NCBI GenBank assembly: GCA_903911305.1
Contig: CAIWDB010000434.1
Span: 1 to 42,194 of the forward strand
Direction of reading: 5' to 3'
From: an uncultured Methylococcaceae bacterium
GTDB taxonomy: Bacteria > Pseudomonadota > Gammaproteobacteria > Methylococcales > Methylococcaceae
Length of the DNA stretch: 42,194 bases
In this document: in pieces, positions 38,222 to 41,774 of the stretch
How the letters are laid out: the number at the start of each line of letters is the position of its first letter
How positions within the stretch are numbered: the first letter of the stretch is position 1
The notes under the pieces: generated by a model
Databases searched by the model: none
Told to the model about the DNA's origin: nothing
What the model saw: the letters and a program-made list of their open reading frames with translations, nothing else
Made by a program: the position numbers and the translations under genes

Positions 38222-39547
38222 ATGAAATCCGACACACCGATTCCTGGCCCTTTAGCACGTAGATCAAATATTTTTCTGATTTGGTGGAGAATTTGGTTTG
38301 AACATGCCGCCATCTTAATGATGGACATATTGCCAAGAACCTTCGATATACTCTTCTCCTTGTTTTTGCTGGTCTTCCTTTCCCCTTTATTGCTGCTAAG
38401 GGCCATCGTGGCAAAAGTGTCGACGGGCAAGGTATTTGAAGCCGAACTACTGGTCGGACGATTCAGAACCCCCTTCTTGCGTCTCCGTTTCAGCGGTAAA
38501 ACGCCCGGGGCAAGATTGGCTTGCCTGTCAAATATTTTGGCGGGAGATATGGCTTTCGCCGGTCCAAGACCCATGCGGGAAGACGAAATTTCGAACTTGA
38601 CTCCTGAACAGAGCATACGATTCACCTTACGCCCCGGTTTATATTCACTTTACTCGCTTCGTCGAAAAATTGGCATTGCCTACGACAGTGAAACGGTCAG
38701 CGATACCGACTTTTACTATAGCGAAACGGTAAAAGGGGACGTTGGGCTAGTTGCCCGATCCCTGATTGGCGACATGTTGGCAGGCGGCGACATGCGCCCC
38801 ACTCCGCCGATTTTAAATTTTTTTGGCGTCGAAATCGTCAACACCACTATGGACGAAGCCGTAGACTGGATGGTAAAGAAGGTTCGTGACAATGCAGCCA
38901 GTTTTGTCGCATTCGTCAACCCTGATTGCCTCAATATTGCCTATACCCAAGAAAAGTATCGTCAAGTGCTATCTTCAGCCGACCGCGTCTTGCCTGACGG
39001 CATAGGCATTAACATTGGATGCCGAATGTTAAATGTTTCATTGCTGGCTAATATCAATGGGACTGACCTATTTCCCCGTTTGTGTGAACGGGCGGCAACG
39101 GAAGGGTTATCGCTTTTTTTGTTCGGGGCTAAACCCGGCATAGCTCAAGCTGTAGCCAACAATATGCGCGAACGCCTTCCCGCCCTTCAGTTTGCTGGCG
39201 TTCGTGACGGCTATTTTACCGCGGACGAAACCGACCGCATCATAGAAGAAATTAACCACTCGAATGCCGACATATTGCTAGTGGCTTTTGGGGCACCCAA
39301 GCAAGAGCTATGGTTGGCGGAAAATCACGCCAAACTCAAACCCTGTGTACGATTGGGAGTGGGCGGTCTGTTTGACTTCTACTCAGGGCAAATGCCTAGG
39401 GCACCTCTTTGGATGCGCGAAATTGGCTTGGAATGGACATGGCGTCTATTACATGAACCGGGGAGGCTATGGCGTCGTTATTTAATCGGCAATCCATTGT
39501 TCCTCTTCCGAGTGTGGAAACAGAAAAGAATGAATGCCTACCCATGA
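38222..39547 (+). CDS. Fusion of a degenerate sugar transferase module with a WecG/TagA glycosyltransferase
   Basis: The 441-residue protein has two halves. Residues 35-190 look like a polyprenyl-phosphate hexose-1-phosphate transferase: a membrane helix at about 41-62, then GDMAFAGPRP (108-117). The family's catalytic Asp-Glu is replaced: where SIDELPQL is expected it has PGARLACL, and KFRSM is replaced by RLRFSG. This half is probably inactive. Residues 195-435 are a WecG/TagA/CpsF glycosyltransferase: VAFVNPDCLNIAYTQEKYRQ, VLPDGIGI with D259, LLVAFGAPKQELWL and VGGLFDFYSGQMPRAP. This half keeps the expected residues and should add an N-acetylmannosamine-type or similar sugar to a lipid carrier. 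The gene overlaps the next one by 4 bases (ATGA). Confidence 0.85.
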   Translation: MKSDTPIPGPLARRSNIFLIWWRIWFEHAAILMMDILPRTFDILFSLFLLVFLSPLLLLRAIVAKVSTGKVFEAELLVGRFRTPFLRLRFSGKTPGARLACLSNILAGDMAFAGPRPMREDEISNLTPEQSIRFTLRPGLYSLYSLRRKIGIAYDSETVSDTDFYYSETVKGDVGLVARSLIGDMLAGGDMRPTPPILNFFGVEIVNTTMDEAVDWMVKKVRDNAASFVAFVNPDCLNIAYTQEKYRQVLSSADRVLPDGIGINIGCRMLNVSLLANINGTDLFPRLCERAATEGLSLFLFGAKPGIAQAVANNMRERLPALQFAGVRDGYFTADETDRIIEEINHSNADILLVAFGAPKQELWLAENHAKLKPCVRLGVGGLFDFYSGQMPRAPLWMREIGLEWTWRLLHEPGRLWRRYLIGNPLFLFRVWKQKRMNAYP

Positions 39548-40296
39548 AACCTATAAAGCACCCTTCAGATAATGGTTCTGGCGTAAGCCAGCAGAAGGAA
39601 CTCTTTGAGCGTTACGAAAACATAGACCGTATAGCGTTCCGCAAAACCCTGAGGCTTTATTGCAAGCGGGCCTTGTGGGTTGCGGTTGTACGCACCACTT
39701 ACTTGGCCAAACGACTATTTGACATGCTTGCCTCTGCCGTTTTACTTTTGCTGTTGAGTCCCGTGTTTTTGGTGTGTGCCGTTGCCATCCGTCGAGATTC
39801 CCCTGGGCCAATTTTTTTTCAACAGAAACGGGTGGGACGGTGGGGAAAGTTATTTTCAATGTGGAAGTTCCGTTCGATGTATATTGATGCAGAGGTCCGC
39901 AAAAAAGAACTTGAGACAATGAACGAAATGAATGGCGGCGTACTTTTCAAAATGAAAGATGACCCAAGGATTACCAAAGTAGGCAAAATTATACGAAAAG
40001 CTTCCATTGATGAACTGCCACAATTATGGAATGTGTGCAAAGGGGACATGTCTTTAGTTGGCCCTCGACCTGCCCTTCCATCGGAAGTCAACCAATATTC
40101 ACTCGCAGAACGACGCCGCTTGGAGGTAATTCCGGGAATCACCTGCATTTGGCAAGTATCCGGGCGATCAGACATTCCATTCGATAAACAAGTGGGGCTA
40201 GACGTGGAATATATCGAATCTCAATCATTGTGGCTTGATATTAAATTACTATTACTTACCATACCGGCAGTGCTATTGGGAAGAGGGGCTTATTGA
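39544..40296 (+). CDS. Undecaprenyl-phosphate sugar-1-phosphate transferase (intact)
   Basis: A 250-residue monotopic membrane enzyme that transfers a sugar-1-phosphate onto the lipid carrier and starts glycan assembly. It has the re-entrant helix ([20 protein letters not shown]), KFRSM (108-112), the catalytic pair D156-E157 in SIDELPQLW, and GPRPALP (173-179). The C-terminal [17 protein letters not shown] is typical of the WbaP/EpsE group, but the usual multi-helix N-terminal domain is missing. I chose the ATG at 39544, which overlaps the previous stop (ATGA). It shares one base with the next start (TGATG). Which sugar it uses cannot be read. Confidence 0.92.
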   Translation: [250 protein letters not shown]

Positions 40297-41774
40297 TGCG
40301 CACTATAATCATCGCAGACCGTCTAGGACACGAGTTATTCCCGCTGACTGACAGAACCTGTCCCGCCTTATTGCCTGTGTCTGGTAAGCCAGTGCTGGAA
40401 CACACTATTGATATGCTGGCAAATGCGGGCATCAAACGGGTCATCATAGTCATCGGATCTTTTGCTGATCAAATCCGCACCAAGTTTGAATATGGGCGAC
40501 GTTGGGGTATTGAAATCGATTATTGGGGTACTCGCGGAGAGGAAGAACCGAATACCTTGTTGGCTCAGCTTCCAAAAGGGATGCAGTTTGATAGCACACT
40601 CATCATCAGGGGTGATATGATCAGGTCGGCATGCATAGTGGAGTTTTTAGAACAAGCCACCACCCGCAATGCCCCAGTTTTGCATGGCACATCCCATGGA
40701 CATTCGTTAGGGATATGCTTATGTAAAACGGATCACGTTGATCTGGACCCTTTGCACTGGCCTATACTAGTACAGGGCTTGCCCATTTCACCGGACACTA
40801 TAATCGAACTCCCCGATGCAAAGGTTTCCCTCATGGAGTCTTTGGCTGCATTTCACCAAGCGAACTTGGACGCTGCCGCGGGCCGAATTCCAGGATTGCT
40901 AATTCCAGGCCGACAAACGGCCTTAGGGCTGACGCAAGGGCGTAACAGCCAAGTCTCTTCTCGCAGCATAAAGCTTGGAATCGCTTTTGTTGGCAGTGGC
41001 AGCGAGGTTCACCCGACAGCCGAACTGAACCATGAAGTTGTCATCAGCGACCAAGTCATAATTGACCGACATGCAAAACTCTCCGATACCGTTGTTTTGC
41101 CAAACACCTATGTCGGCGAATTGGTCAACCTAAGCCATTCAATTGCGTGGGGAAGCGACTTGATCAGAGTCGATCTTGACACACACGTGCGCGTCACCGA
41201 TGCCTTTCTATTGGCCGACCTTAGACAAACTACCTTGGGTAACGGCCTATCCCCGTTGCTTAACAGGATCGGAGGACTATTATTGTTAATCTTGTCCCTA
41301 CCCCTATGGCCGATTGCTTGGCTAGCGACAACTCAAGAAAAAACTTCGGGGACATTATTTAAATCATGCCGACTGCGTGGAAATCGGATAGAACTCACCG
41401 AATTTGGAGAACGTCAGAGAACCGAATTCACTGCTTGGGAATGGGCAACCGAACGACCACTACTGAGGGCACTCCCCAAAATATTGGCTGTGGTGAGCGG
41501 TGACTTGAGATTAGTAGGCGTGGAGCCAGTAACCATTGAACAAGCAAATCGGCGCACAGAAGAATGGGAACGTTACGCTGATGGAGCCCCTGCCGGACTC
41601 ATTGGACCCTCCCAACTGAGATATTCTGATGAAACACCCGAAGAAGAGCGTTTATTGGCCGATGCCTATTATGTGGGCCAACATGATCACTGGAAAAACT
41701 GGCTATATTTATTGGAAGGGATACAGAAATTATTTAGCCCCCGATCTTGGAGTCGTCAGCAAGGTAAATCCTAA
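40296..41774 (+). CDS. Three-part protein: degenerate nucleotidyltransferase, beta-helix, degenerate sugar transferase
   Basis: A 492-residue protein. Residues 1-200 have the fold of a sugar-phosphate nucleotidyltransferase (LFPLTDRTCPALLPVSGKP and LIIRGDMI). The GGxGxR loop is replaced by ADRLGHE and the usual Lys of 'PKxLlPv' is Ala. Residues 230-300 form a left-handed beta-helix (SEVHPTAELNHEVVISDQV and onward). A hydrophobic helix at 322-346 leads into 345-485, which aligns with sugar transferases; however, RALPKI stands for DELPQL and GVEP for GPRP. Both enzyme parts therefore look inactive. It is the third gene in a row with such a module, coupled to the intact one. A structural or regulatory role in the initiating complex is an inference. 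The ATG at 40296 is favoured over the TTG just before it. Confidence 0.75.
   Translation: MRTIIIADRLGHELFPLTDRTCPALLPVSGKPVLEHTIDMLANAGIKRVIIVIGSFADQIRTKFEYGRRWGIEIDYWGTRGEEEPNTLLAQLPKGMQFDSTLIIRGDMIRSACIVEFLEQATTRNAPVLHGTSHGHSLGICLCKTDHVDLDPLHWPILVQGLPISPDTIIELPDAKVSLMESLAAFHQANLDAAAGRIPGLLIPGRQTALGLTQGRNSQVSSRSIKLGIAFVGSGSEVHPTAELNHEVVISDQVIIDRHAKLSDTVVLPNTYVGELVNLSHSIAWGSDLIRVDLDTHVRVTDAFLLADLRQTTLGNGLSPLLNRIGGLLLLILSLPLWPIAWLATTQEKTSGTLFKSCRLRGNRIELTEFGERQRTEFTAWEWATERPLLRALPKILAVVSGDLRLVGVEPVTIEQANRRTEEWERYADGAPAGLIGPSQLRYSDETPEEERLLADAYYVGQHDHWKNWLYLLEGIQKLFSPRSWSRQQGKS

Follow-up and report, generated by a model that had tools for sequence, protein, structure and literature searches.

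We found that three overlapping genes in the window (the whole 42,194-nucleotide stretch analysed, from an uncultured Methylococcaceae bacterium, a relative of methane-eaters) each encode one Bac_transf module (PF02397, monotopic PGT) at positions 38222-41774, and that the modules of the two outer genes, g1 and g3, are conserved and, judged by their residues, apparently dead copies of the PGT fold. The sequence-only reading of this DNA had described one active and two degenerate modules, and Pfam bore this out, with PF02397 above its cut-off of 27 bits in all three products (g1 51.9, g2 227.5, g3 36.1). Such dead copies on either side of an active-looking enzyme suggest an enzyme assembly whose cohesion or regulation depends on dead enzymes.

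Gene layout and the intact-looking PGT

All features described here lie on the forward strand. The overlap of the three genes, also claimed earlier, was confirmed: g1 (38222..39547, 441 aa) and g2 (39544..40296, 250 aa) share the ATGA at 39544-39547, and g2 overlaps g3 (40296..41774, 492 aa) by 1 base with the start at ATG 40296, the one that relatives favor, or by 4 bases with TTG 40293. g2 can also be read from 39469; the start at 39544 agrees with relatives. Upstream, a syntenic block opens with a GT2 glycosyltransferase (35542..36726, start from relatives; best NCBIfam match EpsU NF041865, 1.1e-78, at 265 bits below the cut-off of 700), followed by a second, likewise syntenic GT2 glycosyltransferase (36716..37687; PF00535, 2.7e-22) and an EpsC/CysE-like hexapeptide acyltransferase (37695..38198, start from relatives; NF041874, 2e-39, 135 bits against a cut-off of 150).

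g2 matches PF02397 at 1.1e-67 and TIGR03025 at 298 bits, over the cut-off of 295.55. In the alignment and motif table it carries D60-x12-P73, K108 (equivalent to Lys59), R151 (equivalent to Arg88) and the dyad Asp156-Glu157 (40009-40014), and the combined PGT motif is found in 29/29 g2 rows. g2 thus looks like an intact small monotopic PGT, is predicted to be active, and probably starts the synthesis of a surface polysaccharide.

The outer modules lack the catalytic dyad and are conserved

The pseudo-PGT module of g1 (residues about 30-190, 38309..38791) matches PF02397 at 8.5e-14 and retains D42-x12-P55, whereas in its aligned segment PGARLACLSNI..GDMAFAGPRP the Asp-Glu dyad is replaced by Ala97-Arg98 (38510-38515). 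In the g3 module (41238..41756), N323-x12-P336 stands for D-x12-P, and the segment PLLRALPKILAV..GDLRLVGVEP has Arg391-Ala392 (41466-41471) for Asp-Glu. Both replacements had been noticed from the sequence, and DNA and alignment agree with them. The dyad Asp is present in 61/61 active-type rows (53 distinct) and in none of the 38 g1 or 35 g3 modules; a Glu without the Asp occurs in 4/38 g1 and 0/35 g3 modules. Furthermore, the dyad together with the lid segment that holds the mobile loop is gone from 38/38 g1 and 35/35 g3 modules of the relatives analysed, such that the spacing between the F109 and D156 columns is 34-49 residues in the active type versus 5-7 in all pseudo rows. These counts take in g1 of G079 and g3 of G145, G140, G253, G214 and G139. 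Outside them stand all three genes of G002, g1 of G250 and g3 of G079, which lay in pieces, were truncated at contig ends or were not retrieved, as well as g3 of G142 (split between contigs) and the decayed g2 of G140.

The earlier reading also held that the degenerate modules keep the membrane anchor and the fold. The helix and core residues are indeed kept: G173 and G198 are retained in all pseudo-PGT modules, and the globular part is conserved at G167, G173, G198 and D220, in g3 also at L158 and Q204. The fold was recovered in the AF2 model of g1, which matched PglC with Z 12.2 and rmsd 2.9 over 107 residues and showed a kinked re-entrant helix, D42-x12-P55 being invariant in 14 rows; the C-terminal part of the module (residues 131-189) has pLDDT < 50. 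For g3 the assignment as a PGT module comes from sequence profiles (PF02397 6e-9, WbaP 5.2e-6, PglC 8.5e-5). Its model has helices at 320-334 and 337-347 in the PGT module, and no PGT was among the matches listed in its fold search, those lists being filled by other domains. Both g1 and g3 were folded alone.

The outer modules are under purifying selection, with pN/pS well below 1 in each measured pair (within genus, 0.10-0.30 for the g1 module and 0.14-0.22 for that of g3). In a tree of 64 of the 101 module rows, thinned at 85% identity, the g1 modules formed one clade (support 92) and the g3 modules another (support 100). A single pseudo-PGT ancestor for both was considered but not adopted: the branch joining them had a support of 23, and long branches meet there.

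Domains fused to the outer modules

The WecG-like and beta-helix parts that had been noted earlier were located in g1 and g3 respectively, and g3 proved to contain more than that. The C-terminal domain of g1 (residues 196-441, 38807..39544) is a WecG/TagA glycosyltransferase by Pfam domain (PF03808, 1.2e-62, 211 bits over residues 196 to about 440), by fold (TagA, Z 25.8, 35% identity) and by the conserved aspartate of its (P/A)DG motif, which is found in 38/38 rows and which we take to be catalytic. WecG/TagA/CpsF enzymes belong to GT26.

Residues 1-200 of g3 (40296..40895) have a nucleotidyltransferase fold according to profiles and fold matches, and are followed by a left-handed beta-helix (40902..41231; fold match, pN/pS 0.04-0.17 within genus); residues 1-433 match tlr0611 with Z 24.1 over 300 residues. 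Where alignment to active enzymes and the loop in more distant relatives place the GxGTR loop, g3 has ADRLGHELFPLT (40314-40349), and it lacks the Pro-Lys. We assume both signature elements to be catalytic. Regular expressions found neither of them in 36 g3 rows, 34 of which are informative, g3 of G139 and G467 having no N-terminus. In the g3 loop, A7, D8, R9, G11, E13, L14, P16, L17 and T18 are invariant in 18 rows. On this sequence evidence, the N-terminal half of g3 is a dead nucleotidyltransferase whose NTP loop is gone. This half, and the signaling cassette that adjoins g3, had been overlooked in the sequence-only reading.

Distribution of the three genes and the adjoining cassette

Of 311 genomes of the order, 34 have g1 or g3, and 30 of these have both. 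An expectation that the three modules always occur together did not hold, since a linked and intact g2 is found in only 22/34; it is missing from its slot in 9/34 and is a decayed pseudogene in one (G140). Among the ten genomes without intact g2 in the slot, g1 stays in ten and g3 in eight. Thus, docking to g2 is not obligatory. The co-occurrence of g1 and g3 is mostly between linked genes and can be explained by linkage; in G597 both are present at least 80 kb apart, the only genome showing them unlinked (the contigs of G257 and G491 are short). In six genomes from three family-level groups (G145, G151, G491, G597, G878 and G991) g1 and g2 form a single polypeptide.

We also observed g1 without g3 in G036, where the downstream sequence was read through, and in G304, where a transposase-like frame, judged by eye, lies at the expected position of g2. 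A polytopic protein at the g2 slot in genus g10 was rejected as a replacement PGT: it matches GT87 (27.3 bits against a cut-off of 25), a class different from PGT.

Genes of a PP2C/HATPase/STAS partner-switching cassette begin no more than 120 bases past g3 in 26 of the 29 testable loci of the order (those with at least 400 bases of room after g3), and are absent after g3 in the other three (G007, G021 and G145). In the window, the 5' part of a response regulator (41878..42194) runs up to the contig end; it contains a receiver domain, and over 105 residues its product shares 94% identity with L038:11533-12756 (Response_reg + SpoIIE), so that a SpoIIE/PP2C domain is expected past the contig end.

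Possible roles of the outer modules

The reading we favor, to which we would give close to an even chance, is a complex that primes a lipid-linked exopolysaccharide, with g2 as the priming enzyme, g1 as the extending one, and the dead modules serving for anchoring, assembly and perhaps regulation. g2 would use a nucleotide sugar as donor to load a sugar phosphate onto undecaprenyl phosphate, and the WecG domain of g1 would then attach the second sugar. The two dead modules would perform no chemistry and, through their retained membrane-inserted helix and core fold, would hold WecG and the pseudo-nucleotidyltransferase/beta-helix subunit on the membrane beside a PGT, namely g2 where present, or else another PGT in trans. 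g3 may be a non-catalytic scaffold or regulator, possibly a nucleotide-sugar sensor as GMPPA is for GMPPB, and might respond to the adjoining cassette. The catalytic loss in 73/73 modules, their retained structural residues, the selection on them, the co-occurrence in 30/34 genomes, the six g1+g2 fusions, the shorter pseudo-nucleotidyltransferase/beta-helix protein after g2 in G664, G569 and G457, and the cassette in 26/29 loci support such a complex, and the activation of EpsZ by EpsW is a precedent for it. Against it count the missing or decayed g2 in ten of the 34 genomes, g1 standing without g3 in G036 and G304, the linkage behind most of the co-occurrence, the three loci that lack the cassette, and the listing of small monoPGTs as monomers (PMC10942596). 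Docking and regulation by the dead modules are inferred.

A more ambitious version, which we regard as rather improbable, is an undescribed priming holoenzyme of several gammaproteobacterial families, in which the pseudo-PGTs of g1, with its second-step glycosyltransferase, and of g3, with its dead nucleotide-sugar-sensing fold, would clamp an active PGT between them and control how undecaprenyl phosphate is committed, in response to nucleotide-sugar level and a partner-switching signal.

Alternatively, the pseudo-PGT modules could be plain membrane tethers for WecG and the pseudo-nucleotidyltransferase that make no specific contact with an active PGT. The persistence of g1 and g3 in genomes without linked g2 fits this account, as does the retention of the helix-kink Pro of D-x12-P in 71/73 modules (36/38 g1, 35/35 g3), and in G664, G569 and G457 g2 is followed by a shorter pseudo-nucleotidyltransferase/beta-helix protein without any PGT module. 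However, the conserved globular part and the purifying selection on the whole module are more than a tether needs, and we consider it unlikely, if a serious contender. It is less probable still that the modules bind lipid-linked substrate, the g1 module presenting Und-P or Und-PP-sugar to WecG in a form of non-catalytic channelling. Although g1 modules keep the GPRP Arg in 34/38 and the helix Asp in 31/38, none of the 38 has the Lys at the position of PglC K59 (6 have Arg there) or the Arg of the R88 column, and in g3 the GPRP Arg, too, is lost from 34/35 modules; R88 and R145 are reported to bind UndP (PMC10519829).

A new catalysis independent of Asp-Glu could account for the conserved residues that each pseudo family has of its own, such as A431, P432, G434, L435, G437, P438, Q440 and L441 (18 rows) and the loop A7, D8, R9, G11 and E13 in g3; with the dyad Asp, the Lys and the lid segment lost in every row and the Arg nearly always, no recognisable site is left, and we hold this to be very unlikely. 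Finally, that the modules are functionless, decaying remnants, as the missing dyad and lid and the further degraded g1 modules of G664, G569 and G457 might suggest, is largely refuted by the purifying pN/pS, by the survival of the architecture in other families, where identity is down to about 27%, and by the different look of real decay in g2 of G140.

Comparison with known systems

How bacteria allot a scarce lipid carrier between pathways is an open question, and conserved dead PGT modules together with an active-looking PGT, a dead nucleotidyltransferase and a signaling cassette offer a concrete, testable pseudoenzyme case at the PGT step. They also carry a warning for annotation: domain matches would label g1 and g3 as sugar transferase or nucleotidyltransferase, and neither activity is expected. 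Among the titles and abstract openings found, none dealt with dead PGT modules, and the exact phrase gave 0 matches, which does not establish absence from print.

g2 resembles a full small member of the monotopic PGTs (PF02397; PglC, WbaP, EpsZ). The g1 and g3 modules share the re-entrant helix signature with this family, and that of g1 the PglC fold, but unlike its members they are without the Asp-Glu dyad, the Lys and the mobile-loop segment, and nearly always without the Arg. The C-terminal domain of g1 matches WecG/TagA/CpsF (TagA 7mpk, 5wb4); in contrast to these, g1 has a pseudo-PGT at its N-terminus, and in six genomes its C-terminus is extended by an active-type PGT. From residue 1 to about 306, g3 has the nucleotidyltransferase plus beta-helix fold in common with GMPPA/GMPPB and VTC1/KONJAC (Z 18-20). 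It differs from them in being bacterial, in having its loop broken in its own way and in being fused to a pseudo-PGT. GMPPA is described as a non-catalytic regulator of its active paralogue (PMC11228364, PMC9168903).

In exopolysaccharide synthesis of Myxococcus xanthus, EpsW is reported to bind and activate the PGT EpsZ, a case of post-translational control at the PGT step published in 2025 (PMC12802240). There, too, a signaling protein acts on a PGT, EpsW being a single-domain response regulator and EpsZ a large PGT, whereas the g1-g3 locus has a PP2C/HATPase/STAS cassette and pseudoenzymes, and its cassette-PGT link is conjectural. In Vibrio fischeri, the STAS protein SypA and the regulator SypE control biofilm polysaccharide, with the mechanism of SypA given as unknown (PMC4517449); the likeness of this partner switching to the g1-g3 locus lies in the cassette alone.

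Results

Two degenerate modules flank an apparently intact phosphoglycosyl transferase

The locus lies in a 5.8 Mb genome and consists of six genes in one direction (35542-41774), in which two GT2 glycosyltransferases and an EpsC/CysE-like acyltransferase stand upstream of three genes whose proteins all match Bac_transf (PF02397, monotopic phosphoglycosyl transferase, PGT) above cut-off. These are g1 (38222-39547; pseudo-PGT module and WecG/TagA domain), g2 (39544-40296; small PGT) and g3 (40296-41774; pseudo-nucleotidyltransferase, left-handed beta-helix and pseudo-PGT module), directly followed by the 5' part of a response regulator gene (41878-42194). 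g1 and g2 overlap by ATGA, g2 and g3 by one base, or by four with a TTG start. The three overlapping transferase genes were thus correctly recognised by the sequence-only reading, and its by-eye claim that the catalytic Asp-Glu becomes Ala-Arg in g1 and Arg-Ala in g3 agrees with both sequence and alignment. Among named loci, the closest g3 proteins (74-83% identity) are from MAGs of Methylococcaceae or Candidatus Methylumidiphilus, and on this basis we treat the order as Methylococcales and the host as a gammaproteobacterial methanotroph. Elsewhere on the contig, a minus-strand ORF (29017-30444) appears by eye to be DNA cytosine methyltransferase-like with an N-terminal helix-turn-helix; it lies just upstream of adjoining genes that we take to resemble rpoN, hpf and rapZ.

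All checked active-site residues are present in g2. We aligned 61 active-type rows (53 distinct) with 38 g1 and 35 g3 modules. The dyad Asp was found in 61/61 active-type rows and in no g1 (0/38) or g3 (0/35) module, and the dyad Glu in 61/61, 4/38 and 0/35, respectively. Lys occupied the PglC K59 column in no pseudo row (Arg in 6/38 g1), and the R88 column held Arg in 0/38 g1 and 3/35 g3, with Lys in one further g3; PglC numbering is that of PMC12802240, and the matching of K59 and R88 to columns is ours. Furthermore, the F109 and D156 columns were 34-49 residues apart in active rows versus 5-7 in every pseudo row, and this stretch would contain the PglC mobile loop (residues 61-81; PMC10519829). 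The residues retained in the outer modules are structural ones: the kink Pro in the D-x12-P motif (36/38 g1, 35/35 g3), G173 and G198 (all pseudo rows) and the position aligned with helix-stabilising D168 (29/38 and 30/35). The Asp of D-x12-P was kept in 31/38 g1 and replaced by Asn in 29/35 g3.

Decay of the outer modules is argued against by low pN/pS in two genera, given as pN/pS only because dS was saturated in several pairs. In the host genus (five genomes, ten pairs), the pseudo-PGT modules had values of 0.10-0.30 (g1) and 0.14-0.22 (g3) and the pseudo-nucleotidyltransferase 0.19-0.29, compared with 0.06-0.14 for g2 and 0.14-0.21 for WecG. The corresponding ranges in genus g10, where the locus has no g2, were 0.18-0.34 (g1), 0.25-0.42 (g3 PGT) and 0.31-0.38 (pseudo-nucleotidyltransferase).

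Predicted structures and the nucleotidyltransferase part of g3

The g1 model (mean pLDDT 72.0; residues 131-189 unreliable) matched TagA (Z 25.8 over 198 residues) and PglC (Z 12.2 over 107 residues). The g3 model (mean pLDDT 78.4) best matched tlr0611, a nucleotidyltransferase with a beta-helix (Z 24.1 over 300 residues), with further matches to GMPPB/GMPPA, ADP-glucose pyrophosphorylase and eIF2B subunits. Such matches filled the g3 fold lists, and assignment of its PGT part rests on sequence matches to WbaP (5.2e-6) and PglC (8.5e-5).

The GxGxR and Pro-Lys residues are catalytic in active nucleotidyltransferases; neither motif was present in 36 g3 rows (34 with the N-terminus). The loop that reads, for example, LAAGKGTRVRPITYTIPKP in solved relatives is laDrlGreLlPLtdrtcva in the g3 profile, where A7, D8, R9, G11 and E13 are invariant across 18 rows, though not in all distant rows. 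Catalysis by this part is unlikely, and g3 is probably dead twice, in its nucleotidyltransferase and PGT parts alike.

Distribution of the three genes

Among 311 genomes of the order, g1 with a pseudo module occurred in 32 (including one g1 spanning two contigs, in G250). g3 likewise occurred in 32, a count that includes a copy truncated at a contig end in G079 and split copies in G002 and G142. At least one of the two genes is present in 34 genomes. The three modules therefore do not always occur together: g1 and g3 co-occur in 30/34, and 22/34 have an intact g2, either as a neighbouring gene or within a fusion, with a further 2/34 not scorable. In G139 and G147 g3 lies at a contig edge and is uninformative on g1. 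G036 (87% complete) has other genes downstream of g1 instead of g3, and G304 (99% complete) has a by-eye transposase-like frame in the g2/g3 place (L163:1-728). The slot lacks g2 in 9/34: G253, G257, G304 and six genomes of g10, where the position is occupied by a polytopic protein whose GT87 score barely exceeds the cut-off (L053:15371-16582; equivalents in L054-L057 and L164). In G031 (g10), PF02397 has only one intact match, a large PGT at a distance of 2 Mb, surrounded by genes that by eye resemble another polysaccharide cluster. In G140, frameshifting and mutation have made g2 a pseudogene (L154:12265-12979), with intact g1 and g3 on either side.

By genus, the g1 and g3 sets are identical (9/50), and their co-occurrence owes much to linkage. 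Clear separation of the two genes is seen in G597, a genome from outside the order: g1 and g3 occupy different contigs, each ~40 kb away from the closer end. The two are on separate contigs in G257 and G491 as well, but there both contigs are short. Outside the order, the class sample (369 genomes) yielded g1 with a pseudo module in six further genomes (E up to 1e-70) and g3 in five (E up to 1e-30), and the phylum sample yielded g3 in 2/398 genomes; in G513 and G467 g3 lies at a contig edge. Two more class-sample matches, G446 and G485, are WecG without a pseudo module. All eight g1 carriers outside the order (G383, G491, G597, G664, G569, G457, G878, G991) have g3 or a shorter g3-like protein, which in G664, G569 and G457 (L187-L189) is a 289-299 aa pseudo-nucleotidyltransferase/beta-helix without a PGT module, directly after g2. 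g1 and g2 form a single polypeptide in G145 and G151 (family f8), G491 and G597 (f40) and G878 and G991 (f199), and G485 fuses WecG directly to an active-type PGT without a pseudo module (L192:6397-7824; 475 aa).

A partner-switching cassette follows g3 in most loci of the order

Of the order's g3 loci, 29 have 400 or more bases of sequence beyond the gene. In 26/29 a partner-switching gene match (response regulator-PP2C, RsbW-like HATPase or STAS) starts no more than 120 bases past g3, including 41878-42194, L038:11533-13312 and L156:12754-18001, and none was found after g3 in G007, G021 and G145; the count leaves out G241 and G142 (too little room) and G079 (not scanned). Of eight loci scanned outside the order, only G467 has the regulator, ~1 kb from g3; in G878 and G991 a STAS gene lies upstream, ~9 kb from g3.

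Discussion

In the most probable scheme, undecaprenyl phosphate is primed by g2 and the WecG domain of g1 acts second, an order consistent with the natural fusions of g1 to g2 and with that of WecG to a PGT in G485. Membrane insertion and the core fold appear to be retained in the dead modules, which therefore most likely anchor and assemble; the strongest candidate regulatory subunit would be g3. The observation of one active-looking and two degenerate modules is confirmed, and the accompanying proposal that the outer modules dock the active enzyme is partly supported: anchor helix and core residues are kept, but g2 is missing from its slot in 9/34 genomes.

No account of dead PGT modules was found in the literature searched, and novelty in print is not proven because that search did not cover a key superfamily paper. 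While we saw no precedent for the combination, the separate ideas of the mechanism do have precedents.
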